Origin: Saccoglossus kowalevskii
Lineage: Eukaryota; Hemichordata; Enteropneusta; Harrimaniidae
Reading direction: 5' to 3'
Assembly: GCF_000003605.2 (NCBI RefSeq)
Contig: NW_003149267.1
Location: forward strand, 595,662 to 636,879
DNA length: 41,218 bases
Below, in pieces: positions 8,101-41,218 of this stretch (position 1 is its first letter; every line of letters starts with the position of its first letter). The position numbers were made by a program, and so were the translations under genes. The notes under the pieces were generated by a model. It saw only the letters and a program-made list of their open reading frames with translations. It made no database searches and was not told the origin of the DNA.

Positions 8101-9453
8101 CTAATTTGAACAGATATGTTACCCAAAAAGCTAAAAATCCACATACCCTAGTGGTGTTTCCACTCATTAACATTCTTGTTGAATTATTCACTTACAAAAA
8201 AGCTCTCCAATATTATAGGACAAATGAGACCAATTTTTCCAACAAACATAAGCCAAAATTTTACTGGCCTGTGATCATACATTGATTAATGATATACCCA
8301 ACTTTGAAAAAGATTACTTGAGTTATTACGGTCACAAGAAATTGTTAACAACGACAACAACGACAGACATGGTTACCTCTACATCTCGGTTCCATCATTA
8401 CAGGCAAGGTAATAAAAATGAGAGACAATACTATATATATTATTATATATGATGTATGGAGCTGAGGGGTTAATCATTGAAATCATGGTGGGGGCGGAAG
8501 AGAGTTATCAGAGCAATTTTCTGTACATTTTGATTGTTCTTGAATGTGCCATCATTCTCCTCTCAACACCTCTCTGTATCTAGCTTGCAAATTTACAAAT
8601 CTTCTAACCTCCTCTAAGTTTTAAATGAATGACCCCCTAGGGTAGATACAATGTAAGTGAAATCTATGACTTACGAATGAAACATACTGGCCAACATGAT
8701 TCGCTCATTTGAGGATAATTTAGGTCTTCCAAACTTGATGGCAATTGGATAATTTTCTGAATCAGCGATGACATCTAATACGTCACGGCCATCTTCTAAT
8801 CCTCTACCAGTCACTGTCTCACCATTGATTGCCAGTAGTGTATGACCAACTAAAACACAAAATATATCATCAATATGCATGCTTTTATTACTAATGTTGG
8901 ATCAAGAAATTGTTTTCCCCGTCTCACACATGGAAATTGAAGCTACATTGATGTGTAGAAAACCTGTCACTGACCTCTTTTACATTATGCAGACATTTAT
9001 TTTCCATGTATCCACGAGTCAAAATCCGACCTCCACCCCTCACCCTCCGTCTTTTAAATGACCCACCCCATAAATCGGGTACACACATCAAATCTGTAAA
9101 TGACATTTCGGGACGTCTATCGATCAGCTACGGGACATGCATTATGACTGTCAATCACGAATTTTGTTAGCTCCATGATTCGACTAACGCGGTGGTTAAT
9201 GTTCCCAGTTCATTTAAATAATGGAGAAGCTCGTGACATGATTTATTTTCCGGGTATCCACAAAATGTTACATATTACCTTTGATGCCGTCACGTTGTCC
9301 AAAGGATACAACCACTCTTTCATCTACGATCTTAAGAACAAGTTCCAGAGGATAGCTGAAGGTTTTTTCTACTTCTGTTTTAGCTGATGTGTGGTCCATT
9401 TGATAAATTAATCCACCAGCTCTATTCACAACATAAACAGCGAAGATCGCCAT
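5169..9453 (-). CDS. TRAPPC4: TRAPPC4 (synbindin), TRAPP complex subunit 4, complete
   Basis: Five exons on the minus strand: 9279-9453, 8675-8849, 7922-8025, 6003-6129 and 5169-5247, all with GT/AG borders and matching phases (1,2,1,2). They join to 660 nt, 219 residues, the same length as I recall for human TRAPPC4. The start [17 protein letters not shown] is the conserved longin strand; exon 2 carries the PDZ-like insert ([10 protein letters not shown]) and [20 protein letters not shown]; exon 3 has [20 protein letters not shown]; exon 4 has TDPRQGG and [20 protein letters not shown]; exon 5 begins CELFESN and ends AGMYTASV, a diverged C-terminus. TRAPPC4 is a core subunit of the TRAPP tethering and Rab1-activating complexes at ER-Golgi membranes. 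Intron 4 contains a MITE (5537-5743) and intron 3 a Tc1 transposase relic. No frameshift or missing core segment is seen. Confidence 0.97.
5537..5743 (+). mobile_element. MITE family B, copy 1 (TA-flanked, 207 bp), in TRAPPC4 intron 4
   Basis: Starts CTGTAAAATGAC and ends with TTTTACAG; TA at 5535-5536 and 5744-5745. Near-identical copies lie at 21915-22122 and 33558-33764. It is non-coding. The inner sequence repeats blocks like TTTTCACTGGGTTT and ATTTCGCTGATT, and the right half contains their complements. Confidence 0.88.
6420..7330 (+). pseudogene. Tc1/mariner transposase relic in TRAPPC4 intron 3
   Basis: Translating across several frames and stops gives an ordered Tc1-like transposase: an N-terminal remnant (about 6437-6600), KKKPKLQP (about 6625), the first catalytic Asp in [12 protein letters not shown] (about 6718-6755), [13 protein letters not shown] (about 6950-6990), and [14 protein letters not shown] (about 7078-7120), which holds the third catalytic acid. 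The second catalytic Asp, normally in QQDNxPxH, is Cys here. Many stops interrupt the frame, so the element is dead. It lies on the strand opposite to TRAPPC4. I could not identify its terminal inverted repeats with confidence; an imperfect palindrome at about 6253-6282 may be unrelated. Confidence 0.8.
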
Positions 9454-9811
9454 TTTGAAAAAACGTTCAACAACTGATGGCGCTGTTCATGAAAATGAAC
9501 AACATTATGCTTGACCATTATGCGTAGGTTCGCTTTTGGGGTCACTTTAGGTTCGCTGAACCATGGAGCTAAAATAAGTTTAGCTCCATGGCTGAACTGT
9601 GCGTCAGATCACGTGACCCTTGCGCGTAGAGGCGGGGACCAGCCAACACTTTAGATGGATTCGGCGACTGCTGACATATGAGAAAAAACGTACACATATA
9701 TTGTCCCCGTGCATTTTATGTCGATTGACGGAGACGGGATATTAGTGATGAGACCAATTTGGCGAATTTTTGTTCACAAAATTATGTTTTTTTTTCTTTG
9801 AAACAGATTAA
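9454..9811. promoter_or_regulatory. TRAPPC4 upstream region with two hairpins
   Basis: Directly upstream of the TRAPPC4 ATG. It holds a small palindrome at about 9486-9501 (GTTCAT-GAAA-ATGAAC) and a perfect 13-bp stem with a 5-base loop at 9561-9591 (stem CCATGGAGCTAAA). No TATA box is evident. Promoter function is inferred only from position. Confidence 0.4.
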
Positions 9812-9968
9812 AGCGGGAGGGTCTTCACCTGCGCACGCCCGGGATTGGAGTCCCAAGCGACGATAACATCACACGCTAAGAACACAAAGGCTCATGGGCA
9901 GACACTTGTTTGTAAACAATGACACGCTATGGCCATTTGACGCATGCGCAGGTGACGACTCCCCCGCT
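9812..9968 (+). mobile_element. MITE family C, copy 1 (TTAA-flanked, 157 bp)
   Basis: Ends AGCGGGAGGG... and ...CCCCGCT form imperfect inverted repeats of about 25 bp (both reach CACCTGCGCA). The element is bounded by TTAA at 9808-9811 and 9969-9972, the piggyBac-type target site. It is much more GC-rich than its surroundings and does not code. A second copy lies at 17219-17368. Confidence 0.82.
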
Positions 9969-10529
9969 TTAAAGGTTGAAATCAAGGGAGTTTACACATA
10001 AATTGACTTCTTGTTTGCACTTTCTTTAATATACCATAAACTATGTTGTAAAGAACTCAATGACTTTCAAATATAAATATTAGCAGCCGACTCGTCTGGG
10101 CATTTTCATTTAATTCTGATATATGTTTCACCGGACCCATATCTGATCCTGTGTGCAAAACGATATTTCAACATGTAAGCTTTTCCTTGGTGAATATGTC
10201 CCACCATTTAGCTACCAACACGAAGAATACACATGTGAATGTGTGTATATTTTACTGTGAAAATATGATAGCCATCAATTTGGGATTTTAAGCATTCTTG
10301 CGACCCCAAAAGTACAGATAAACCCATTTGTGGTTTTCTGTGCTTGTTTTTTATCTGTTTTTGCTGTCACTATTTTGTTGTTGTTGTTGTTGTTGTTTTT
10401 TGTGTAAAATAAATAAATGTATTATAATGTTTGTTCGCCATCCGTTAATAAAAGCTACGCACTGGGACAGCCAGAAATAGAATAACAGAATTGACACAGG
10501 GGTAATTTATTCAATATACTAGAGTATAT

Positions 10530-11619: not shown

Positions 11620-14600
11620 ATGGCAGGGGAAACAATTCAACAATGGTTCTCGGATATCGACATCAACTACGACTCTATCCCGTTTATTGTATACTCCGTA
11701 CTCATAATATCGGTAATATCACTGGTAGCCATATGGTGGTTGCTCCGTATCACCGATCTACCACCTGGACCACAAAATGGTCCAATCACGTGGATTAAGC
11801 TTACGTTTAGTAAGAAATACGCCAATAATCGATTTAATGATTGGTGTAAAGAGTACGGCGATCTATTCAGAGTACGCATGGGAACCAAACACGTGGTCGT
11901 ACTAAACAGCGTCGATGTAATCAAGGAATGCTACATAAAACACCAAGATGCGTTTTCAGATAGACCCAAATGGTGGCCAGCTACACGCCTCAATCAAGGA
12001 CTAGGTAAGAATAACCCGTCATATATAACATACTTAAATCTAATAGATATACGCAATAAATAGTATAATCAAAGATATACGAGACGAGATAAGTCAATTA
12101 AGTATTACAATCTTATGGTAATAGGATATTTTTCTAATTTCACATAGAAAAAATAAAAAAATAAAACAATTGTCAAACTACAAATAATTCCATTAATAAA
12201 AGAATAATTTTGTTTTATAGAATATATTTAAGTTTAACAAATTTTTAAATATAGTTGAAAGCGACATCGCGTTTTAACGGATGCATGGCATAAATCGGCA
12301 AACGACCGGAAGAAAGCTGCAAAGACTCATGGGTGATGGGTACTAGTATTACCAATCGGGAAGGTCTTCCAGGATACATGTTAATAAATAAATGTGCATG
12401 AAAACATTCATGTCTTTATGAAATTCACAGTAAATTTTTAATAATGCAAATAAATCAGTTTAGATATGACTTATTATTTCTTTGTACATATAGGCAATTA
12501 GTTTTGTCAATACCGTGTAATTACTTGTGTCGACTAGCTTCATAAACATTGTAGTTTTTACGATAGATAATACAACCATTTAAGACAAGATGTATTCTCT
12601 TTATCTTGATTCTGTATACAGTTCAAATTATGCGATAATAGGAACCTTGTTTTCTATATTATTACATTCTGTACATTTATATTTTATTTATATTCGTATC
12701 TAACTTTCAGCTCTAGGAACCAGGCCTTATGGAAAGGCATGGATGCGACAACGTGCTTTCACCTCGAATGTTTATCGAAACTCTGGACAAAGTAGAAACG
12801 TCACATTGGAAGAATCCATTCAACAAGAGGTAGTCAATTTCATTGGTGCTTTGAAGAAAATGAGAGGGGAAGCTTTTCATCCAAATCAACTTTTTTGGAA
12901 GCCGTCTGTTAACGTCATTAGTAATATTATGTTCAACAATCAGTTTGATTACCGAAATTATTTTTTTGAGAAAATCATACAAAGATTGAATGAATTTGAC
13001 GTAGAACTGAAACGCAGTGAACCAATCTTTACCTATATCCCGTGCATGTGGTACTTCATGCGAAGCAGAAAAAACGCGTTAAAAGTATCTTATAATAATC
13101 TGACCGACTCCTTTTCCAAGATCATTGAACAACAAAGAAGTACATATCACAATGACGTCATCCGACATGGTTTTGATATGTTCTACCGTGAAGTTAAAAA
13201 GAAAGAGAACAGAGAAAGAAGTGTGTTCGAATCAGACAGACGATACAACGACAGCTTTCTCCATTCATTTGTCGAGCAATTCTACACCGGCGCTACACCG
13301 ATGGCGAAGGCAATGGAGAATATTTTTATGCAAGTGGCACAGCGACCGGAATTACAAGAAAAGATTGCCAAGGAAGTAAAAGAAGCCGTGGGTCAAGATA
13401 AAACACCAACTGTGGACGATCTGGACAATTTACCGTTGACCAATGCAACTGTACTGGAAATCTTAAGATGCTATCCCGTAGAAAGTTACTGCTGGCCAAG
13501 ACATGCAAATCAGTCAATACCTATGAATGAATGCACCATTCCCAAGGGTGACGTCATTTTAGCTAATTTGAATGGTATCCTTAGAGATCCGAGATACTGG
13601 AAGAACCCGGATGAGTTCGACCCCAACAGACACATTGATAAGACTTCCGGTAAACTGGACGTCAACCAAGCATTATTGCCGTGGTCTATAGGTAAGTTAT
13701 TGTTGTAGTCTGTGATAGTTCAATTTGACATTGGTACATTTTATGCTATGATCATGCGCAAAATGTCGGATAATATTTTCAGATTTACCTTCATTCGCCA
13801 TTGTTCAGAATAACTTTGAAACAGAGGCGATTATTTGTGAATCTTACTGTCAGAACAGTACCACGATAAAATAGAAATCACTAAAAATTGAACTTTTAGC
13901 TCATGCTAGTATTTCCCTACCCCAGACCATTTGTCCCGGTGTTATCGCTATCGCCACACGAGACTCCAGCTTGTCTCCTATACAATTTGACTGCGCACAT
14001 CCAGAAAGTAGATGTAGCTGTGATTGGTGGAATACTAATGAGTTGAATGTCAATCAAACGCCCACACTATCTAGTAAACAAAGTCACGTGACACGCGCCA
14101 TTTTAGTTTTGATTAGTTCATCGGATCGGAGTGGTCGGGCAGGCGATTTCAAGGCAGCACGCTTAACCCTTTCGTTCACAGGTTGGGAGATATTAGAATG
14201 ACTGACAATTTCACGCCACTGTTTTACATTATTGGCGGATTTTTCTGCGCTATCAATCTTTCTCTTACAAACTAGACATAGATGAGACGACAGAGTCGCT
14301 CCTTTCACAACGTCGCACTGGATCAAATTGGAAAGACGATTTCCATAAGTTATCCCTCCTGCTTTTCCTGGCTTGAATAAATTCACACACGACTTTAACT
14401 GTCCACAAACTCGAAGACTACACGAACACAGTCTACAATAGTCGTCCGCAACAATATGTATGTATTTCTTCGGTGTACTGATGCACGAATGCACCGTGAC
14501 ACGGTGTTTCTCGGGTGTCGCCGGCGCAATTTTTCACCCAACTCGCGATTCTGTTTTGCAACATTTTATCAATATTCCCTTTGACAAAATCGCCGACAAA

Positions 14601-16095
14601 AGCACAGCTTTGCTGATCTTTTGTTCTATAATTCTTAATGCAAACACCGACCCTAGTAGTAATTAGTAACGTCGCTTAGTACATATGAACGGTCGTCATT
14701 GCAAATCGAACATCCTTTTGAAATTTGGACGTCGGGCAGGCGATTTCAAGGCACCGCACTTAAATATTAGCAACATATTTTTCTGAGCGGTTGTTTATTC
14801 TCTTTCAACGAGACATAAATGTGACGACATAGTCGATCCCTTATCCACCGCTAAGAANNNNNNNNNNNNNNNNNNNNNNNNNNNNNNNNNNNNNNNNNNN
14901 NNNNNNNNNNNNNNNNNNNNNNNNNNNNNNNNNNNNNNNNNNNNNNNNNNNNNNNNNNNNNNNNNNNNNNNNNNNNNNNNNNNNNNNNNNNNNNNNNNNN
15001 NNNNNNNNNNNNNNNNNNNNNNNNNNNNNNNNNNNNNNNNNNNNNNNNNNNNNNNNNNNNNNNNNNNNNNNNNNNNNNNNNNNNNNNNNNNNNNNNNNNN
15101 NNNNNNNNNNNNNNNNNNNNNNNNNNNNNNNNNNNNNNNNNNNNNNNNNNNTAAATTATTTCACACAATGCTCACAATGCTCCCAAATAAAGATCGTTAA
15201 TGAGGTTAAAGTTCAACTTTAGCACTTATATATTTACATTTCATTACTAAAACATTTTCTGCATTTCCGATAACTTCTATATTTCGCCTAAAAGCCAATC
15301 GGGCGTGTAGCTTAACGGTGCAGATAAAACTGCGACCAATAATACTTTACAATGTTGTTAAACAAAAAATAATTAATTATAAATAGTTCACAGATCAAAT
15401 GTTTCATATATTTTGATCACAACATTACGAAAAGGCGGAAAAGTTTATGAAACTTGAAACGGACAACAATTATTTGATTTTTTTTTTCACCACTTTAAAG
15501 ATTGTTTATACGCAATACTCACATTTTGTCAACAGGACCACGTAAATGTGTTGGCGAGATAGTTGCCAGGACAACGATGGTAATTATGTTGGCGGCTGTA
15601 ATTCAGAAGTTTGAGATCCGACCACCGAAAGAAGGTTGCTTCCGATATGTAATGAACGGTTTCAAATCAGCAGTCCTTCGCTGTAAAAGAAAAGTCACTA
15701 AAATATGCGCCCTCGCGAGGGTGATTGAGGAGAATGGTAAACAAATAGATAAAGAACCAAGTGATGCAAGTGTCATTGTAAAGAATTCTGATGAGGAACT
15801 TGAGAAGATAAAACAGTTACAAGATGCTGCTAGCGAGAGTCAGAAATTGAATACTGAGGGGGCAGACAATGCGAAAGATGGCGCGGAGTCACGTGACAAC
15901 GAAACGTTGGATGTGAAGAAAGTTGAAAAGTTGGCAAACGGAGAAGATGAAAATATACCAGGGGAATCAGATAGCGCAGAGTTAACTGAAAATCAGACTG
16001 CAGAGAACGAAACAACTACAGAACCAATCCAAAAATGTGAAGAGACGACCGATGAATACATTGAACGAAAAGGATGGAGATGTGACGTGATGTGA
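11620..16095 (+). CDS. Cytochrome P450, divergent, with long acidic tail and CaaX-like end
   Basis: Exons 11620-12004, 12711-13691 and 15536-16095 join in phase (1,1) to 641 residues; most P450s are about 500. A hydrophobic anchor (about 20-43) and hinge LPPGP place it on the ER membrane. P450 landmarks: RPYGKAWMRQR (helix C), EILR for the ExxR motif (E378, R381), PRH, FDPNRH, and heme loop WSIGPRKCVGE with C460. Three oddities are visible. The I-helix reads YTGATPMAKA (T321-P325) where the family has AGxxTT, so the acid and the oxygen-activating Thr are missing. The usual Phe of FxxGxRxCxG is Trp. After the catalytic domain (about 505 onward) comes a roughly 135-residue E/D/K/N-rich tail ending C638-D-V-M, a possible prenylation signal. 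It looks CYP1/2-like in overall style, but I cannot name the family. Intron 2 contains an antisense zinc-finger ORF and a gap. The exon joins leave no stop. Confidence 0.93.
12005..12710 (+). other. P450 intron 1
   Basis: AT-rich intron with donor G|GTAAGA and acceptor TAACTTTCAG. No other gene or repeat is recognised in it. Confidence 0.8.
14084..14494 (-). CDS. ZAD-like C2C2 zinc-finger ORF, intronless, antisense in P450 intron 2
   Basis: An uninterrupted 136-residue frame. It has a Cys pair C20-x2-C23 (DDYCRLCSCSL), a conserved-looking stretch CVNLFKPGKAGG, then LIQCDVVKGATLSSHLC with a second pair C73-x2-C76 (HLCLVCKRK), and a helical segment KIDSAEKSANNVKQWREI. This spacing resembles the ZAD-type N-terminal zinc domains that mediate dimerisation in arthropod zinc-finger factors and that recur as large families in marine invertebrates. 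No C2H2 fingers follow; the frame stops after KTKMARVT. A decayed second copy follows at 14731-14857 and enters the assembly gap. It could be a retrocopy, a first exon whose partners I cannot see, or a small standalone gene. Confidence 0.5.
   Translation of the reverse strand: MHSCISTPKKYIHIVADDYCRLCSCSLRVCGQLKSCVNLFKPGKAGGITYGNRLSNLIQCDVVKGATLSSHLCLVCKRKIDSAEKSANNVKQWREIVSHSNISQPVNERVKRAALKSPARPLRSDELIKTKMARVT
14731..14857 (-). pseudogene. Decayed second copy of the ZAD-like sequence, cut by the assembly gap
   Basis: It shares a 23-bp identical run at 14731-14753 with 14134-14156. Further on, 14786-14842 aligns with 14247-14306 (AGACATA-ATG-GACGACA-AGTCG) with many changes and a deletion between the two blocks. 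It continues into the N run, so its full extent is unknown. Confidence 0.6.
14858..15151. other. Assembly gap (294 N)
   Basis: A run of N inside P450 intron 2, directly after the duplicated zinc-finger fragment, which suggests a repeat-caused assembly break. Open frames across it are artefacts. Confidence 0.99.
15301..15335 (+). repeat. tRNA-like SINE head fragment (box A only)
   Basis: TAGCTTAACGG at 15308-15318 fits the tRNA promoter box A consensus exactly, within GGGCGTGTAGCTTAACGGTG. No box B follows, so at most this is a truncated tRNA-derived SINE. Confidence 0.3.
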
Positions 16096-16195
16096 ATGGC
16101 GTGACGTCATGATGTGAGACACGGCATGACGTAATGTGTCATGGCGTGGCATAGTGAGACGTGACGTGCATGTCGTCATGTCGTGTGATGTGATG
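16078..16195 (+). repeat. TGACG/TGATG-rich low-complexity tract over the P450 stop codon
   Basis: The units TGACGT, ATGATG and GTGACG recur irregularly. The tract includes a perfect palindromic CRE core TGACGTCA at 16102-16109. The last codons of the P450 (TGT GAC GTG ATG TGA) are part of it, so the coding end may have arisen by repeat slippage. A regulatory role of the CRE is not shown. Confidence 0.6.
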
Positions 16196-17040
16196 TATTT
16201 GTTTTAAATTATCGTTTAGGTATAGTGGTATTGTATTTATCCCATATATCATAAAAACGTGGGATAAAACAATGTAAATAATTGTCGATATCGCCATAAT
16301 TTGCAATGCAAATCCTAGTAACTTGATTGGTCCATGACATCTTACTAACAATCTTCAAAATACATACAATATCTTAATTTGTTGATTGTTTTACACTAGA
16401 TTTCCTGATTTATTTTCACGAATTATAGATATTGGAATATTTCTGGTAGTTACAGATGTCAGTTAAAATGTGTCTTATAAATCCTCATATACACAAATCA
16501 CTATTTACAACTCCACGAACTTGAACTTGTCTTGCACTGCAAGTTTATTTCACCAATGTCTAGCTTCCAAGGACTGTTTGAAGGCCATTAATCAAATTTA
16601 CTCAAAAATTAGTAATAATATGAGGTTATTACATCATGGGAATGCCGAAATCCATTTTTTTTGTATATGGTAGGCTGAAAATAACCCGTAAAATACCGCA
16701 AAATTACGGCACGCTGTGACAGAGTTATAATAATTAGTAAATATCCCCGAAAGCGTAAATTAAATTTAAACATATTTGACCGCGTGAAGATAAACTGAAT
16801 AGGTATTCACCGACAAGCGATCATTTACGCAAATGCGACAGGACTCTCTACGAAGTCGATGTGAAACGGATATTCAAATTCATGACCCCAAAATATTAAA
16901 TTCATTGAATTATTCATTTATTTATTATGTTTAGTTAGTATGATTCGGGAGGTAATAATGTAGTCTTTGTTGTATGGAATTTTATATTGTAGTTGATTTA
17001 CATTGCGACGTTACACTGACTGAGTTAAGATATGGTGTAA
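16196..17040. other. Intergenic, nothing recognised
   Basis: AT-rich sequence downstream of the P450. No exon, RNA gene or clear repeat is seen. Confidence 0.5.
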
Positions 17041-17062
17041 TTGATGTCTTTTTCAACTTTGT

Positions 17063-17200
17063 TTAAAGGGCGGTGGTCTTCGCGCTGCGTCGTGCTAGAT
17101 ATGGAACACATAGCCACAACTCGTGTAATGTACACTGTTTATACGAAATTCGTACGCACACTACGCGACGACAATCGTCACCATTTACGTTTATCACCAT
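17063..17200 (+). repeat. GC-rich dispersed repeat, family D copy 1
   Basis: It starts TTTAAAGGGCGGTGGTC. The following sequence (TATGG-AC-CATAGC, GTGTAA-TACA-TGTTTAT, GAAATTCG-AC) aligns over about 110 bp with 39103-39219, which ends with the complementary GACCACCGCGCTTTAA. This looks like an old non-autonomous element with TTAA-type ends; divergence is high. Confidence 0.5.
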
Positions 17201-17218
17201 TTACATTATCTATGTTAA

Positions 17219-17368
17219 AGCGGGAGGGCCGTCACATGCGCACGCGCGGGAATTGAGTCCCATGCGATGATAACAACACACGCTAAAACGCAAAGGCTCA
17301 TGGGTAGACGCTTGTTTGTAAACAATGATACGCCATCTGACGCATGCGCATGTGACGACTCCCCCGCT
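17219..17368 (+). mobile_element. MITE family C, copy 2 (150 bp)
   Basis: Same ends as 9812-9968 and the same internal landmarks (GAGTCCCA, CAAAGGCTCATGGG, TTGTTTGTAAACAATGA). Flanked by TTAA at 17215-17218 and TTGA at 17369-17372 (one mutation). It sits just after a family D repeat. Confidence 0.82.
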
Positions 17369-17372
17369 TTGA

Positions 17373-20139
17373 AAAAGTATTTTATCAAACAGTAGTATTT
17401 ATCAAAATTTTCTAATAACTCGTAACAAGTGCCCATTTTATAACTATATATATGATACTGTAGGTAACCAAACGAAATATTGAGATATAATGTAAAAAGT
17501 TTTTCAAAAGAAACACAAAAGTTTGAGGACAGCATATTTCAATTTTTCGAATGCTGTGCACGGGGATACTAATTATTTATGATTAAGTTTGAGGTATACT
17601 ATGGTAGAATTTTATTTGTTAATTATGGTTGATATGCGCCATGAATATCGTGTTTTTACAGTCGTGGTGGAAGATTATATTAATGTAAATACTTAAACGT
17701 ATATCGTAATTGTGGCATTTGGTGTACGCTGTTTTGTAACTGTTGTTTGTGTCAATTGTGGTTTAGGTATATTATATTAAGGTAATTATATTCTGTGTCA
17801 ATTATGGTTGGAAATGGAATGTATTGAAATGTAACTATCGTATTCGAATTAAAGTACCTTGATATGATACGAAATATATACTGATATGTAAATATTGTAA
17901 GTTATATACATAGTCACGCGTTCAATGAGAAATGCTGGTATAATGACATGACAAGTTGTGACAGGTCACTGGATAGTCTGTATATAGAGCAATCTATATT
18001 TGGCACAATAATTACATCCGGGTATTACATCCACCGACATTGCGTGTAGTCGCGTTTTATTTATATGCTACCATTTACATTACACTTACACTCACCATTA
18101 AAGAGAACTTTTATTCATTACGTTATTAAATGTTCAAGTTGAAAGCCCCACGCCTTATATAGTTGTATTATTTCTATTTTCGTGCAAGTATGCTTCACCA
18201 AATTAATGTTTTTCCTCATAATTTAAAGAGTCGTCAGTGTTGGTTGGTAGTGCGATAGTTCAGTATGTACTAGTTTATCGTCGCTGCCAATGATACGTAA
18301 CATCAGGCCAAGGTCTGACAATTAGTGTCTTATGGAAATAAAATAATAAATTGGGAATTAAAAACACTGGCAGAGAAGTGTAATTCCTGTTAAGTAGTAA
18401 TTATCATATTTCACCAAGAGTGGGCGCTGTACCCACACAGTAGTTGTAATGAAAAGTTTGGTTCATATCCCATCCAATGAACGCACGTCCAAATAATATT
18501 ATACAAACCATAAATGGGAGCGTCACGCTACATCACTGAATGCGTAGTGGTAAACATTTCTGCATTACAATCCCGCGTCCTCTGTTGAATTTGACAGTTT
18601 CTGTCTTTAGATGGGATATGTCGTCTGACCAAATTATTTATTATTTTTTTTAATATACTACCTCTGAAGAAAACCTGCTCTCTATTGTTTAAATATGGAC
18701 AATAATCCAGAGTGTTTTTATTCACCGCAGAGTAATATAGCACTGTTCAACAGAAATGTTTTCTGTTTTATAAGCTAATACAAACTTCACTCTAACGTCA
18801 GTTTATTGGAAATATTTTATTAGTTACGTTTCGGGTCAATTTATCAAACCATTTATCAAATCACTGACTGTAAGATAAATACAAAAACAATATAAGTTAT
18901 ATATATGTAAAACGGTAATACAACATGAAGGACTCACCATATTGAAATAAACATGCATAGTCAATGCAGATAGAGGCGAGACAGACCTAAGGTAAGAGCA
19001 TCGGAGATCGTGGATCAGCATCGACTCAGCCAAAAACAGGATGATGAGACAAAGCAAATGTAAAAAAGGATCTCGAAAATCCCACATCACAATACAGGAA
19101 GATTTTATAATAATGGTTTTATCACCGTGTTACACAATCTGTGCAGTTTGTATTTCATATCACACCTTACCATTAGTGTATTATTTTACTCCTCTTGAGA
19201 ATATTTATTGATCCGTCAACCAGTACTCACTGATGTCACAGTTCTAGGGGACCACTTTTTCCATATCACTATTCATACTGTTTTTATAAGACATTATCTT
19301 AACTTGGTCTGCGCATGTCACTGAATCGTGCTCCAGTAACATCATGTATCATTGCTCAGGGAAATCACACACAATACAACACTGATGACTAAGTGTTATC
19401 TATAGATTAGATTACTAATTTTTCCATAATTCAGACCTCTTAGAATGCCAGAGGAATGTGTAAAGACAACAATGAAGGAGTCCAGACATACACATGAATT
19501 GGAGGTAAATCAAATCAGACTTTATTCGGTCATAGAAAAACATAGTTTATGGTATCTACTGTGGTTACATAGTTTCTTAACTTGTGCAATAATACTATAA
19601 TTTTGGGTATATAAAAAAGTTTTTTGGCAATTTTTAGGACAGGTAATTTTTTATCCTTTAGTATTCATTAATTGTTTGGCACTGTTCGGGAACCCTTTCT
19701 TAGTAACCTCATATGGTATCTCTGTACCTTTCATCAAGACATCGAAACTTTTGAAATTCCATGTGTTACAGGCTTGAGCTTAGTAATCGAAATTCGTTTG
19801 GGTGTTTCGCACTCGTCCGGCGTTTCGAAATTGTTCAGAGTTTCGTTAGTCAGTTTTGTTTTGTATAAATTGTCGCAAATTTGCACAAATTTGTTATGTA
19901 TAGGTCACCGCTGAACAGACTGAATTGTCAACTTAATTCAGACATGCTATATTCAACAGATTGTATGTAGCATGTCTGTAGTTTGGTCGTTGCTAGAAAA
20001 CAAAGACAGATAATTAAAAACTAATCGCGATCTTCTAGCCTACAGAATTGTAATAGTAAACAAGTCACAATATGAATTTTGCTTTCAGCAAATCCATTTG
20101 ACAAAAGATGATTGGCATATGCACTAGCCTTTTCACCTA
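17373..20139. other. Long intergenic stretch, no gene recognised
   Basis: AT-rich, with short frames on both strands that show no domain. One segment, 19435-19504 (+), could be read as a small exon with acceptor AATTCAG and donor GAG|GTAAAT, but it has no recognisable partner or homology. Confidence 0.45.
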
Positions 20140-20266
20140 CTGTAAACAACTTCATTTTAGCTGGAATTGTTTTGTATGGAATTTAATTTCACTGATTCTT
20201 GATAACTTGAATGTAAAATACAGAAAAGAAGGTATATTCACTGGATTTGATTTGTACTGAATCGCC
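20140..20266 (+). mobile_element. MITE family A, degraded and truncated copy
   Basis: It begins CTGTAAACAACTTCATTTTA after TA at 20138-20139 and follows family A order: GCTGGAATT, GGAATTTAATTTCACTGATT, TATATTCACTGGATTT. The right end is lost. Confidence 0.6.
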
Positions 20267-21018
20267 TCTTTAAATTTTATCTAACCAGATTGTTTAAGTA
20301 ACATTTAAAGATTTCTCCCCTGTTGCTTTCCTAAATGAATTCTAATGACTTTGGTGTTATACTATTTTTACCCAACATGTGAAGGGAATTGCTCTCTAAC
20401 TGTATCGATGCGTTGAATTCTTGATTCCAAATCGGACTTCACTTGTTATTTATAATTGTTAAGTTTTTATCAGGGATGACATTAGTTCTTTATCCAACTC
20501 TTGGGTAAGTAAATTTAGCCTATAAAACAATGCATACACTATCACAGCACGAACACCCTGTTCTCAAACATCTACCAGTATATAAAAAGGCAATATGAAC
20601 GAAAATGAAAAACAGGATAAACATACGAAGACTAAATAATTTACATATTATTTTCAGACTGCATCTGAACGGGGACTACTCTGATCCATTTGCATCTTTA
20701 AATTTACCGTATGTAAAATGTAAAAAAAATAACTGTAAATCGACAGCAGTGGTTTCCTATTCGTTATTAAACTTCTAACTAATGATACTACTTGAACACT
20801 GTATATTAGTGAATTAAAACCATAAACCATTTTGCAACCATAAACCAACTTGATGCATGAAAGCAAGATTGGTCAATACTAAGTCAAGCCAATTAGCTGC
20901 CACCAGTTTTCACTCCACCAAGTACCGTATCCGGATAGTTTGGAATCTGTGATGAGAGTATAATTGTCATAGTTAGTAGTCTATTACAAATAACAACACC
21001 AATTCCATGTAATGGTAT

Positions 21019-23791
21019 TCATATCTTTATTGCTACATCTATATTCAAAGTTCCAGGGTTGCAAACATGATAACCTGTAAGAAACGTGCACCCCTGTGTG
21101 CATCCATAATATGTATGTATATAGTGACTATAAGATGCTATATGTGAACCCTAACTTTTCCAGGGAATTATGCAGAGCATTGTTTTTTGTAGGCCTATTA
21201 TGTACCAAGCAAAATGCAGTTTGTTTCGTATCTGGGCATTGGGGAGTTTTGCAGTTATTGTTCGTTAAAAAGGCTAGGTACCATAAACCACCTAAAGCAG
21301 ACATATCAACCCAAAGTAGCCCAATTATGTTACGGAGGAAGTGATGTAACATTCTGGTTGTGAGGTAAAACACAACATTTGACTGAAGTTTATTATACAT
21401 ATTCTAAAATATATTTCAAATGTCCCAGTACCAAGAAGGCAAACACAATGCATTTTTCTTGGTACATGATAGCTTCCAAACACACATTGTCTGCACGATC
21501 CTTAGATAAGGATAGGGTTCACAAGTACAAGCTCATGAATTATATAATAATTATAGATAACATTAGCATTCGTAATTTAACTTACTTCAAGCACAAATGT
21601 ATTGCTGTCCATCAGAACTCACATAACAAATTTGACTTGGTGGACATGGGTCACTGCTACATGCATCACCATTAACTTTCAATAAAAAGATAAAGGTACA
21701 CAACATCACACATAGAATACATGATTAACACTGATATAATATAATAACTTGCAACATTATAATATGTGTTGAACTTAACACCATGCTGTCAAGGAATACT
21801 TAGACATGACATTTAAAATTTTGGATACAAATGCATTCAAATTTGAAAGACCTATGCTAAAATGTCTGGATCGTATGTGTTCATTGCTTCAATTTATTTG
21901 CAGGAATGTACATACTGTAAAATGACTAATTTTCACTGGGTTTAAATTTCACTGATTTACCATTTCAGGCATATTCAGTGGGTTTTAAATTCACGGTTTC
22001 GTCATTTAGATAATGTGTTCTATACTAAATTTTACATATTCACTGGGTTTTAATTTAGCGCATTTTCCAGTCAGCGAAATAAGCTAAATTAAAACCCAGT
22101 GAATAATTACCCCCTTTTACAGTAAGTTGTTTACAATGATGCGAAATTGCCAATTGTCATGTCCTTGAAAAGCAAGGGAAAGTTAGAAATTACTCAAGAG
22201 AACCAACATATAGTATTGCCGTTGAAAATTATGCTTTAACAAGTAGAAGGAATATGGAATTCAAGGAAGAGTTTCATTTTTCATATTTTTTAAAATTTAA
22301 TATGTAATTGTATAGTGCCATTTGACAGGCATTGAAAAAAAATATTAAAATTTGCTACAAAGAGTTGACATAATTGGTTGCATGCTCTCTTCAGTTATTT
22401 TTTGTTTTGAGTGTGAAATTACATTTTGATAGACACATTGTTCACCCTTGACAACTTGTTTATAATTAAAAGGACCCAAATATGCATGGGAAGTTTGTGC
22501 AAGTTTACACTGATCATGCAATAATAATAGAAATCAAACAAGGGAATTATACAAATACATGCGCACGCTGTTTCGTACCCGTCCATTTTAAAACCGGTAG
22601 TGTATGAGAAAAAATTGTAAATCCAGAAAGATGTTTATATTTACATGTCTGACACTGATTACCAGTCCACCCACTTGCACATTGACAGATGTATGAACCC
22701 GATCCTAAGTTATAGCATGTTCCACCATTCTGACATGGGAAATTGTTACATGGATTTGCAGCCACATCTATAAAAAAAAAAATAAAGAGTCTATTTCTCC
22801 AGATTCATGACATCAATATAAAAGAGTACTACAAAATCATTATCATTATTACTAGTACCTAATCTAAAACGGACAGGTTTATTGGTACTGTGTAAATTGT
22901 CAACCAAGTTACATTTTAGCGTCATTTGTCTTGGCACTATATAACAAAATAAGATCGTACCACTTTCGTATACCCTGAACATGAACAATTCTAAATTCAG
23001 ATATAGATTTAGGTTCATTGGGAGTATTCGGAGTTATACCAAATTTGATTTGAAATTGGTTCAAATTTCTTCATAAACAATTGTGGTATGTGGCGGCCAT
23101 GTTTTTGTCTTTATTTTAATTGCAATGGTGGTCAATTACTGATGTGAGTTCATTGAAACCAAACTATTATGCTCTTTTACCAACGTTTAAAAGATTGGTC
23201 GAAGAGGAACGGAAATAGACTGTAATGACACCTAATAACGTGACAATCCTTCATGAAGATGTCATCCTCATATAAGCTCTACTTTAATGCTAACAGCAAA
23301 GTTTTTACCACAGTCTTCATTTCACTAAGTAAGCTACAAATGGATTAAATGTGGCATAGAGCAAAGGGGAGAAAGCATAGAAATTGTAGACACCATTCAT
23401 TGTAATAAAACTAGTGGCTGTGGTATGAATGACCTTGATTGCCCTTCTGCTATTTTTGCCCCTTACCACATCTGTCCTTTAATAGATTAATGTCTTCAAT
23501 AATGCCCCGCACGTGATCATTCAGGGTTGTTATCTGGTTGTTCTGTTCATCAATCTTATTACGTAACTGCATCACAATATCTATAAGCTGTTGTGTCAGT
23601 GTTTCTTGTTCCTCATTGCCGTTGCAGTATTTCTCATCTCCACAGTCTGGTAGTGTTAGCATGTACTGACATCTGTTGCCTGTCCTGCAATAATGTTGAT
23701 ATGACACAACACCTGATTGCCTGACTGTGCTCTGTGAGTTGACTGTCATGTTCATTACAAGAAGCAAGATTAAAATCAAAAGTGGTGACAT
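21019..23791 (-). CDS. Secreted coiled-coil/EGF-like protein, possibly with premature TGA
   Basis: Exon 1 (23467-23791) starts with a signal peptide (residues 1 to about 19, MSPLLILILLLVMNMTVNSQ). A Cys-containing segment follows, YCRTGNRCQYMLTLPDC, whose CxYxxxLP pattern recalls angiopoietin/multimerin N-termini, then a coiled coil (about 62-105) ending KDRC. Its phase-1 donor joins exon 2 (22645-22767, phase 1-1), which is one EGF domain (NPCNNFPCQNGGTC, ICQCASGWTGNQCQ). Exon 3 (21586-21675, also phase 1-1) holds a second EGF start, DACSSDPCPPSQIC...YICA, and then TGA at 21587-21589, exactly where EGF cysteine 5 belongs, one base before a strong donor A|GTAAGT. With TGA as stop the product is 178 aa. 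A weak candidate last exon, 21019-21074, gives YHVCNPGTLNIDVAIKI in phase. The product is probably extracellular and multimeric. Confidence 0.7.
21915..22122 (+). mobile_element. MITE family B, copy 2 (208 bp)
   Basis: CTGTAAAATGAC...TTTTACAG with TA on both sides (21913-21914, 22123-22124). It lies in intron 2 of the EGF-like gene. Confidence 0.88.
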
Positions 23792-29239: not shown

Positions 29240-30290
29240 CCATATTCCCCCATCCTAGCTACTATGTTTACATCTTTTCACTCACATCCTGTCACCTTAT
29301 TTCATTTCAGCCACACTCTGCCACTTAATTCCCATACATCTCTTCACTCACACACCTTCTCAATTCCTTTTCACATTTTCCCCATACCATGTCCCTTTTT
29401 TCATTTTAGCCACACACTGCCATTTTGTTTCCATACGATTCTTTTATCACACCTTCTGACTTTGTTTCCACATTTCCCCCCCACGCCCTGTCACAGAATT
29501 TCCACATTTCCCCCACACCATGTAACTTTGTTTCCACATTTCCCCCACATTCTGTCACTTTGTTTCCACATTTCCCCCATACCCGGTAACAGAATTTCCA
29601 CATTTCCCCCACACCATGTCACTTTGTTTCCACATTTCCCCCACACCCTGTCACTTTGTTTGCACATTTCCCCCATACCCGGTCACAGAATTTCCACATT
29701 TCCCCCCACACCGTGTCACTTTGTTTCCACATTTCCCCCACACCCTGTCACTTTGTTTGCACATTTCCCCCATACCCGGTCACAGAATTTCCACATTTCC
29801 CCCCACACCGTGTCACTTTGTTTCCACATTTCCCCCACACCGTGTCACTTTGTTTGCACATTTCCCCCATACCCCGGTCACAGAATTTCCACATCCCCCC
29901 CCCCACCGTGTCACTTTGTTTCCACATTTCCCCCACACCCTGTCACTTTGTTTGCACATTTCCCTCATACCCGGTCACAGAATTTCCACATTTCCCCCCA
30001 CACCGTGTCACTTTGTTTCCACATTTCCCCCCACACCCTGACACTTTGTTTCCACATTTTCCCCACACCCAGTCATTTTGTTTCCACATTTCCCCCACAC
30101 CCTGTCACTTTGTTTCCACATTTTCCCCACACCCTGTCATTTTGTTTCCACAATTCCCCCACATTCTGTCACTTTGCTTCCACATTTTCCCCACACCTTT
30201 GCAACTTTGTTTCCAACTTTGCGATTTAGTTTCCATACAGTCCTACTCCCACATACCCTGCCACTTTGTTTCCATGTTTTCCACACACAT
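29240..30290 (+). repeat. C-rich minisatellite, about 32-bp unit with about 97-bp higher-order repeat
   Basis: Units of the form CACTTTGTTTCCACATTTCC followed by CCCACACCCTGT repeat throughout, degenerate at both ends. Between about 29640 and 30030 three variants alternate in fixed order: one with TTTGCACATTT, one with CGGTCACAGAATTTCC, one with CCGTGTCACTTTG. The TTTGCAC variant recurs with spacings of 97, 97 and 98 bp. Because the unit lacks stops, long open frames appear (29264-30229 and others); these are by-products, not genes. Confidence 0.93.
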
Positions 30291-30701: not shown

Positions 30702-33700
30702 TCACGTTTCTGACTCGATTCCTGCTTCAGATCTACTTAATGCTAACGCTTTCTCTAAATCATCTTGTTCTTGTCGCTGGATTTTCATTTGCCTCTCTTC
30801 TTCAAGCCTTTGACTTTCCATAGTTGCCCACTCAAGCTGTGCCTCTTCTGAGGAGAATTCTTTTATCTGTCATAGGTGAATAAAAAATCAGTGGTCACAT
30901 TACTGGTAGATGTATTTGTTGATTCATTGTGATCGCCTTGTATGTATGCGTCATGCACACATACTACTGTATTACAGAAGCAAAATCAAAAAATGTCAGT
31001 CTAACCTGAGCTTTTCCAAAGTCTTTGCAAATCCTCCAAATCCTTCATACTGTGTACTAGTGGTGCTGCTAAATGGATCAATACCTCCACTAAATGGATC
31101 AGATGCTGGAGCTGATGGTGCACCGTCACCAAATGGATCAGACGATGAAATCGATGCTGTCCCACCACCAAATGGATCAGATGATGTCCCACCGCTAAAT
31201 GGATCAGATGATGGAACTGCCGCTGTCCCACCACTGAAAGGATCAGATGCCGGAACTGATGCTGTCCCACCACTAAACGGATCAGATCCCGGTACACCAC
31301 TGCTGAAAGGATCAGGTGTCTGAGCCAAAGTTGTACTGCCACTAAATGGATCAGATCCTTGAACCGATGGAGAACCACTGCTAAATGGATCAGATGCAGG
31401 CGTAACAGTTTTATCAGAGAATCCACTAAATGGATCTTTATCAGAATTACTAAACTGGAACGGATCATCGTTGGATGATTGAAATGGATCTACTACTTTA
31501 TCGGAGGAAGCTGGTTTGCTTTTCTTTGGAGGTAGTGCTGGCATAGAGTCTTTAGTAGAAAATGTTTCCCCTCCAAATGTATCAGTGGCAATACTGGAAG
31601 CCTGAAACAACAGACAAAACATTCCAAGTTACACACCATGCAAATGTTGTTTCAAACCACATAAGAAGCTGAAGCTGAATTTTCCCCCCTAAGTGAGTTA
31701 GAATTCATGAAGTGCTCAACCAATAACTGCAGTGCACAGAAGAAACCTGTACCTTAGCTCATAAACACATTAATATATTTGTAAATGCTGACCCTGAGCT
31801 TTCATTCAAATTAAAATGTGTAATTGTAACTGGCTTGTGAAATCAACATTTTCTACATCAACACCAAGCATATATATGTCTTCAATCAAATATAGATATG
31901 ACGTAGTATCTGTGATCACCCACATATTCAAATATACCAAAATGAAAGAAACAAGAAACCTAACTATCCAAATTTTCTTAATTTACTAAAGCATCATTTC
32001 CAAATGGGGAGTGAGAAGGAGAAATAAAAGTTACATAAAAGGAAGTGGTCTTATTTAATACCATATTTAAAGTAACAACATTTTCTAATGCACGGCTTAG
32101 AGTTTTTTAATCTGTATTACCGGTAGGCCAAAAAAAAAAAACTGGGTCGGAAAATTGGGTCGGTCAGTCAGGATTTTTTTTTTTTTTAAACTTGTGACAA
32201 CTAAGGGTATCGTAAATAGCCGAGGTATATGGGGAAAAAAAAGCGACCCCATTTTTCATATTTTTCTGTTGGTTGCTGAGGGCAACAAAACAATTTTTTA
32301 TTTTTGGCCTTATCATGAAATGTTTACATTTATACTAGCCATTATATCACAACACCATCGCTGGATTGGTATATTGGAATTCAAACAATGTTTATAATGT
32401 CTGCTGACCATACACTTTAACAATTCACTATCAATAACACAGGCCCTGTTTTTATTTTGCTGAATTAACATTCAACACTATCAGTGAAATTTACCCTACT
32501 TACAAACTGTGAACATTCGTGAGTTTCCTCAGACACAATCGTAATTGGAATCAATACCTTACTTGTATGTATTATCAAAGATATCAGCATTGTATACAAT
32601 AACATAGCAATTTATATTTATAGAAGGTTGCACATGTTTACATTGTGTGTGAATGTGCATTGACCGATCGATGGGCAAGAATCAGCGTTCATATCCGAAG
32701 AAAGAAAAAATGTCAGTTGTTTTCATGGCTTTTATATGGTGTTATGTGTCCCTGTTAATAAAACAACATATAGACAATTTGTCACAGCAGATTGGAAGCT
32801 GGTGCTGATTGGTGGGCAACATGTTTAATCAGACATTTGTACGATGCAGGTAAAAGACGTTATGGAACCAGACAACTCACCTTACATTTGCTATCAAATG
32901 GATCAGTACTAAATAAATCGGTGGAAGTAAATGCATTATACGACTGTCCTACAAATGAAGCACATTCAGAAGCATCAATTGGTTAACCCTTTAAAAGCCA
33001 TCATTTTTCCTGTCATAACTTTGGTTCAGCATTTTGCACAATTTTTCACTACAGTATTTCTGTAATTTTCTTATTAATTCTGGGTGAAATGGACATTGTT
33101 TCTTGTTGATTACAATCATTAAACAAACTTTTGAAAGAAGTAGGAAAATAATGTTTGATTTGAGTGAAGTGATAATAGAAGTTGAGTTGTTCGGTCAAAG
33201 GGGTTAATGCATTACTAATAAATAAACACAAACAAGCAAAGTAAATGTAAAATAAAACATACCGTCCACTGCTGTTGTAGATTTAAACGGGTCATCGGAA
33301 ACCGTGTCTTCTTTGCCAGCACCAAATGGATCTGTATCTTTAAACGGATCGCTGGTAAAAATATCAGTCTTGAATGGATCAACTAAAAAAAAATAATAAA
33401 TAGGAATTTTTTTTTGGAAATTTGTTCTTAATGTAATGAGATGACGTTGTTATCCCAGGTGTCCCCATTTTTAAAGTGAAGTTATCCATTGTTATGCTAA
33501 TGAGTCGATAAGAGGTATTTAAAGAATGCCTCATTGGAACATTCTAATGTTGACATACTGTAAAATGACTAATTTTCACTGGGTTTAAATTTCGCTGATT
33601 TACCATTTCAGGCATATTCAGTGGGTTTTAAATTCACAGTTTTATCATTTAGATAATGTGTTCTATGCTAAATTTTACATATTCACTGGGTTTTAATTTA

Positions 33701-40692: not shown

Positions 40693-40759
40693 CTGCACGA
40701 AAAAAACAGAATTATCGTATAAATTATAATCATCAGCAAGTAATACAATATGAACAACT

Positions 40760-41218
40760 CACCATATATGGTCAAGACAATATGAACAACTTGTCATAAA
40801 TGGTAGAAAAGTCAATATGAACAACTTACCATATATGGTAGTAAAGTCAATATGAACAATTTACCATATATGGGCAAGACAATATGAACAACTTACCATA
40901 TATGGGCAAGACAATATGAACAACTTACTATATATATATATATGGGGGCAAGACAATATGAACAACTCACCATATATGGGCAAGACAATATGTACAACTT
41001 ACCATATATGGTAGTAAAGTCAATATGTACAACTTATCATATATGGGCAAGACAATATGTACAACTTACCATATATGGTAGTAAAGTCAATATGTACAAC
41101 TCACCATATATGGGCAAGACAAGATGAATAACTTACCATATATGGGCAAGACAATATGAACAACTTAACATATATGGGCAAGTCAATATGAACAACTTAC
41201 CATATATGGGCAAGTCGA
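40760..41218 (-). repeat. Tandem array of about 32-bp units with splice-donor-like motif, EPS15 intron
   Basis: About 14 units of plus-strand form CAATATGAACAACTTACC + ATATATGGGCAAGA, some 35 bp long with GGTAGTAAAGT instead of GGGCAAGA. Read on the EPS15 sense strand, each unit carries GGTAAGTT (six units) or GGTGAGTT (three units), or a one-base variant, preceded by CATATAT. The array begins about 70 bp upstream of the EH3 exon and runs off the window. Confidence 0.92.

Follow-up and report, generated by a model that had tools for sequence, protein, structure and literature searches.

The window, by which we mean the whole 41,218-nucleotide stretch of Saccoglossus kowalevskii DNA analysed here, carries on its forward strand a cytochrome P450 gene formed by three exons. 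Exon 1 (11620-12004) holds the start codon and the N-terminal anchor and closes with the donor G|GTAAGA, which matches the consensus at seven of nine positions; exon 2 (12711-13691; donor with eight of nine matches) encodes the bulk of the P450 domain, and exon 3 (15536-16095) the heme-Cys peptide, the end of the domain, a long tail and the stop. The spliced exons, with junctions of the GT-AG type, give a single open frame of 641 residues, and neither frameshifts nor premature stops were found in its 1923 coding bases. Within exon 3 no stop interrupts the frame between 15536 and the TGA at 16093-16095, and the C-terminus of the protein reads ...YIERKGWRCDVM, i.e., W-R-C-D-V-M. The N-terminal ER anchor that the original prediction had assumed is borne out by a hydrophobic stretch at about residues 20-42 (11677-11745, forward strand; mean Kyte-Doolittle value of 2.67 for residues 20-38). 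The codon of the heme ligand, Cys460, lies at 15547-15549, within WSIG-PRKCVGE. Intron 2 includes an assembly gap of 294 N (14858-15151) and, on the reverse strand, a 149-residue open frame (14084-14533) with a weak match to zf-AD (E 0.018, below the cut-off), perhaps a mobile-element remnant.

Several other features were recorded in the window. Two short elements that resemble MITEs, at 9808-9973 and 17215-17373, are 86% identical, have inverted ends like TTAAAGCGGGAGGG and flank the P450 gene on either side. A minisatellite (29448-30215; periods of 32 and 97 bases, 23.7 copies of the 32-base unit) lies inside a 329-residue open frame that is probably no gene, and a second 32-base minisatellite, of 14 copies, is found close to the end of the window (40745-41214). 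On the reverse strand we detected an exon of a TauD/TfdA-type dioxygenase (1583-2098; Pfam E 4.2e-13), what may be the first exon of a Sybindin-like gene (9283-9453; below the Pfam cut-off), which we take, as a guess, to be TRAPPC4, and an open frame of repeated S-D-P-F units (30996-31628; no Pfam match at E 0.1), similar to the AP2-binding tail of EPS15. An Rfam scan of the window returned no match at gathering scores.

The P450 matches PF00067 over residues 48-498 (E 2.7e-80; 270.8 bits, for a cut-off of 22.8), and its best relatives of solved structure are CYP2B4 and other CYP2 enzymes (top E 7.6e-50). It shares with animal CYP2-type P450s the N-terminal anchor, the LPPGP hinge, the ExxR motif (as EILR), the heme-Cys motif and the match to the whole domain. 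It differs from them in a tail of 133 residues, in the heme motif, WSIGPRKCVGE, where Trp replaces the usual Phe, and in the I helix. The acid-alcohol pair of CYP2-type monooxygenases, A-G-x-[DE]-[TS], is missing: the I-helix stretch reads T-G-A-T-P-M (13286-13303, forward strand), where CYP2B4 has A-G-T-E-T-T. Among 14 paralogs from the same genome (see below), acid and alcohol are both present in 11; the alcohol occurs without the acid in two (L020 and L021, on contig C7), and one (L022, on contig C2348; I helix G-N-Q-A-L-G) has neither. The CYP152 peroxygenases carry Arg-Pro where that pair would stand (PMC5377825). The window P450 has in common with OleTJE a Pro at the alcohol position (PMC5377825), preceded there by Arg and here by Thr, a likeness that need not mean close sequence kinship. 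The Thr-Pro I helix points to oxygen being activated in another way, to a reaction driven by peroxide or of an isomerase-like kind, or to decay. As a hint of unusual chemistry the missing pair is stronger than the tail, and it may matter more.

To place the gene among the P450s of the genome, the assembly (572,110,611 bases) was searched with PF00067; 92 of 335 candidates were scored and 100 matches listed. The 14 paralogs were fetched by matching exon 2, along with 20 further stretches, 17 at matches reaching the C-terminal part of the domain and three (L044-L046) downstream of matches that ended earlier; four genes with a single long open frame (L001, L002, L003 and L005) were also read. The resulting census of heme exons had 43 rows, seven of which (one each from L001, L011, L016, L028, L035, L038 and L046) were chance rows judged not to be P450 heme exons and were removed; what is left, 35 exons and the window gene, is a chosen part of the P450s of the genome, and at least one of the listed places extending into the heme region (C1842:88365-88610) lies outside it. 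No heme exon was found in the stretches fetched for L010, L033 and L045. Four exons (L030, L031, L032 and L035; lengths of 54 to 94), which we take to resemble CYP3-type exons, may run into an intron, so that their lengths and last residues are possibly not those of true ends.

The original prediction held that P450s usually end about 50 residues after the heme Cys and that this one continues, and the comparison agrees. The 35 other heme exons end 51 to 94 residues after the Cys, or 51 to 72 for the 31 that remain when the four possible intron run-ons are set aside; in the window P450, with its Cys at residue 460 of 641, 181 residues follow, by far the longest end of the 36 exons read. The last exon begins at a common split glycine (G|xRxC), the very place used by the window gene, in 13 of the 14 paralogs, which end 51-64 residues past the Cys; for L010, no last exon was found. 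Exon 1 matches six places in the genome besides the window gene; for exon 2, identity to the other places is 23-28% among the ten with the highest scores. A search with the exon 3 protein gave nothing beyond the window gene itself, and the tail alone had only one match (E 9.15). However, even the paralogs' heme exons escaped the exon 3 search, and hence only close copies of the tail are ruled out, distant ones having possibly been missed.

The gene is also unusually diverged. In a tree of exon 2 proteins (n = 15) it has the longest end branch (2.28, against a median of 0.8), and its exon 2 has the lowest codon-position periodicity of the 15 (2.03 per 100 nt, against 2.28-4.95). Most forks of this tree are open and its two long branches, those of the window gene and L022, may attract each other; we therefore claim no sister group for the window P450. 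The low periodicity and the long branch would fit relaxed constraint and fast adaptation equally. Relaxed constraint, under which the lost stop, the lost catalytic pair and an end made by a repeat (see below) would all be steps of decay, is a possibility that we regard as rather unlikely: the long branch, the low periodicity and the missing I-helix pair speak for it, but the reading frame and the GT-AG splice sites are intact, the ExxR and heme motifs are kept, and a strong codon-position bias extends over the tail as a whole. On the sequence evidence, the window P450 is best read as a strongly diverged, fast-evolving CYP2-type member of the S. kowalevskii genome.

The tail itself (residues 509-641; 15694-16092, forward strand) had been described in the original prediction as acidic, probably disordered and about 135 residues long, and this description stands. 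Its 133 residues include 35 Asp or Glu and 17 Lys or Arg, with no Phe or His, and by the charge-hydropathy criterion it falls with disordered sequences (mean H of 0.379, the boundary formula giving 0.462). With 0.063 stops per codon, as in non-coding sequence, an open frame of 133 codons would arise by chance with p 1.7e-4. Moreover, the heterogeneity of base composition between codon positions is high (chi2 41.2): dinucleotide shuffles gave a mean of 6.3 and none of 1000 was as high, and the maximum in 52 overlapping 399-nt stretches of positions 16200-23000, a region assumed to be non-coding, was 12.6. The signal is strongest in the first half of the tail and weaker in the second, where 19 of 1000 shuffles match it; it is absent from the last 25 codons (947 of 1000 shuffles match), and for translation to the very end it is thus the open frame by itself that argues. 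A synonymous-codon score, if anything, counts against the tail, with log-odds of -9.2 in the true frame and +4.0 in frame +2; this score was trained on the P450 core, of only 508 codons, and because the training set is so small we prefer the codon-position heterogeneity. Taken as they are, the codon-position bias and the open frame indicate that the tail is probably translated, and it is probably both real and unusual. A comparison of the tail with solved structures gave a single match, at E 0.83, which was taken as chance, and viral contigs searched with exon 2 and with the tail contained no relative.

The tail could also be absent from the mature mRNA, if the protein ended earlier through an internal donor or through a different last exon, which the 294-N gap of intron 2 could hide. 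Exon 3 has donor-like sites at 15542, 15580 and 15721, each with seven of nine matches. Against this, exon 3 starts where the last exon starts in the 13 paralogs, in which that exon holds the stop, and the tail is coding-like; we consider an mRNA devoid of the tail quite improbable. Another reading would make the tail a PEST-type degradation signal that gives the P450 a short half-life. A PEST-like stretch is found at residues 588-621 (15931-16032, forward strand), where 34 residues are uninterrupted by Lys, Arg or His; scored with our own coding of the PEST-find formula, it reaches +11.3 and is the sole one of nine candidates in the protein above +5. However, 40% of shuffled tails exceed +5 and 7.7% have a run of at least 34 residues, and the signal is therefore mostly compositional. 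A dedicated degradation signal is accordingly a tentative proposal, one that we think more apt to be wrong than right.

The DNA that encodes the end of the tail offers an origin for its last residues. A degenerate tract of the pentanucleotide GAYGT extends from the last codons across the stop into the 3' flank (16079-16197, forward strand) and begins with three perfect units, GATGT GACGT GATGT, at 16079-16093. The last codons and the stop, TGT GAC GTG ATG TGA (16081-16095), are themselves repeat sequence and read C-D-V-M-stop. The sequence from 16081 on reappears in the 3' flank, where repeat finding detected a 31-base copy (77%). There are 10 GAYGT units in the 119 nt of the tract, whereas stretches of that length elsewhere in the window have at most two on this strand and three on the other; shuffling the tract gave at most nine, and 10 were reached in none of 2000 shuffles. 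When positions 16060-16210 were compared as DNA with the whole genome, four further matches were found (69-73% identity), all in a single stretch of contig C1210 and each starting at position 16079 or 16081 of the window (query base 20 or 22). The C1210 stretch is a plain pentanucleotide array with the consensus GATGT and 76.2 copies, in which GATGT and GACGT are mixed. Tandem Repeats Finder reported no period-5 array for the window tract, giving only a two-copy row of 8 bases (score 32); for this reason we refer to the tract as a degenerate array, and what links it to C1210 is the trio of perfect units, the number of units overall and the alignments at 69-73% identity.

Such arrays are dispersed in the genome. 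The 15-mer TGTGAYGTGATGTGA occurs 325 times, where about two occurrences are expected from base composition, and many of the places listed are spaced by five bases, i.e., they lie within arrays. The reversed pattern used as a control was commoner still (1293 and 1523 matches); being itself a period-5 repeat, the control gives no evidence that the GAYGT repeat is enriched, and the 325 occurrences indicate only the dispersal of the arrays.

Because 5 and 3 have no common factor, pure (GATGT)n reads TGT GAT GTG ATG TGA repeatedly in any frame, that is, C-D-V-M-stop, and since a stop comes up in frame once per 15 bases, any open frame running into the array at a suitable point is bound to end in CDVM. 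Entry into random GAYGT arrays gave complete four-residue ends that were all of the form (C or R)-D-V-(M or T), and in a second-order model built from the 3' part of the repeat, 11.5% of ends were Cxx[MSQACT], against 1.0% for a model of the 3' flank. The repeat that supplies the stop codon is also what reads C-D-V-M, and the CaaX-like end is thus a by-product; most likely it is a microsatellite accident and not an evolved lipid-attachment signal.

The original prediction had proposed that W-R-C-D-V-M resembles a farnesylation signal. The resemblance is there, in Cys638 at position -4 and in a Val at a2 and a Met at X, both favourable, and it is shared with the CaaX-box proteins N-Ras, Rheb and lamin B. 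The window P450 differs from these in the Asp at a1, in an end made by a repeat and in an approach to the Cys that is acidic rather than polybasic (four Lys or Arg and six Asp or Glu in the 20 residues upstream, with no polybasic stretch). The sequence does not bear out CDVM as an evolved signal: its codons belong to the three perfect GAYGT units, and the a1 Asp breaks the prenylation consensus C{DENQ}[LIVM]X>, which bars Asp, Glu, Asn and Gln at that position (PMC3068285). In the yeast data on Ydj1, Asp is also the sole a1 pattern that proved restrictive (PMC10320760). Moreover, a Cys at -4 occurs in none of the other 35 P450 ends examined in this genome, the four possible intron run-ons included.

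Some published data nevertheless leave room for a true CaaX P450, with Cys638 modified by farnesyltransferase and the protein held in the membrane at both ends. The same yeast work describes a1 as tolerant in general and finds Met at X positive in the data based on Ras; the residues that its simplified decision tree blocks are just Asp, Glu, Lys and Arg at a2 and Lys, Pro and Arg at X, so that CDVM would pass (PMC10320760). Two other reports point the same way, one ascribing low a1 selectivity to the Arabidopsis farnesyltransferase (PMC3017772) and the other, by structure-based modelling, finding a1 less restricted than formerly reported (PMC3188499). The tail should also be cytosolic, as is the enzyme. 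Neither CDVM nor CDV appears in the main texts of the farnesylation papers searched, and a search largely confined to journals outside subscription, and so no proof of absence, produced no paper on a prenylated or farnesylated P450 and none on P450 C-terminal tails. With the motif a readout of the repeat, we regard a true CaaX P450 as very improbable. Prenylation as an evolved feature appears unlikely, though prenylation as such is possible, and a repeat origin is compatible with later use of the motif. As to other C-terminal signals, an ER-retrieval KKxx signal is absent from the end of the protein. The PDZ class III pattern x[DE]x[AVILMFYW]> fits CDVM but is very loose, and was set aside (PMC4822787).

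The account that we favour, with considerable confidence, is that of a diverged CYP2-type P450 that lost its stop, acquired an acidic tail and ends at the remnant of a GAYGT microsatellite. The ancestral gene would have ended shortly past the domain, like the relatives read here. The window P450 would then have lost the usual stop, and reading would have continued for some 130 codons, giving rise to the acidic, probably disordered tail, until the frame met the GAYGT tract, presumably more regular then and decayed since, whose in-frame readout is C-D-V-M-stop. If translated in the animal, as we suppose, the tail would lie at the cytosolic face of the ER, where it would most likely be an acidic disordered appendage for turnover or partner binding and most likely no second membrane anchor. 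A bolder version, in which the GATGT microsatellite gave birth to a working CaaX box, so that the loss of a stop next to an array created, at a single stroke, a site for farnesylation and a P450 anchored at both ends, strikes us as highly speculative; if true, such births could recur at other genes adjoining GATGT arrays.

A C-terminal motif that looks like a sorting signal can thus arise without any selection, and motif-based prenylation calls in genomes with arrays of the GATGT type need checking against the DNA. With its unusually long acidic tail, and with Thr-Pro where the proton-delivering pair would stand, the window P450 is a reasonable candidate for an uncommon chemistry or turnover.
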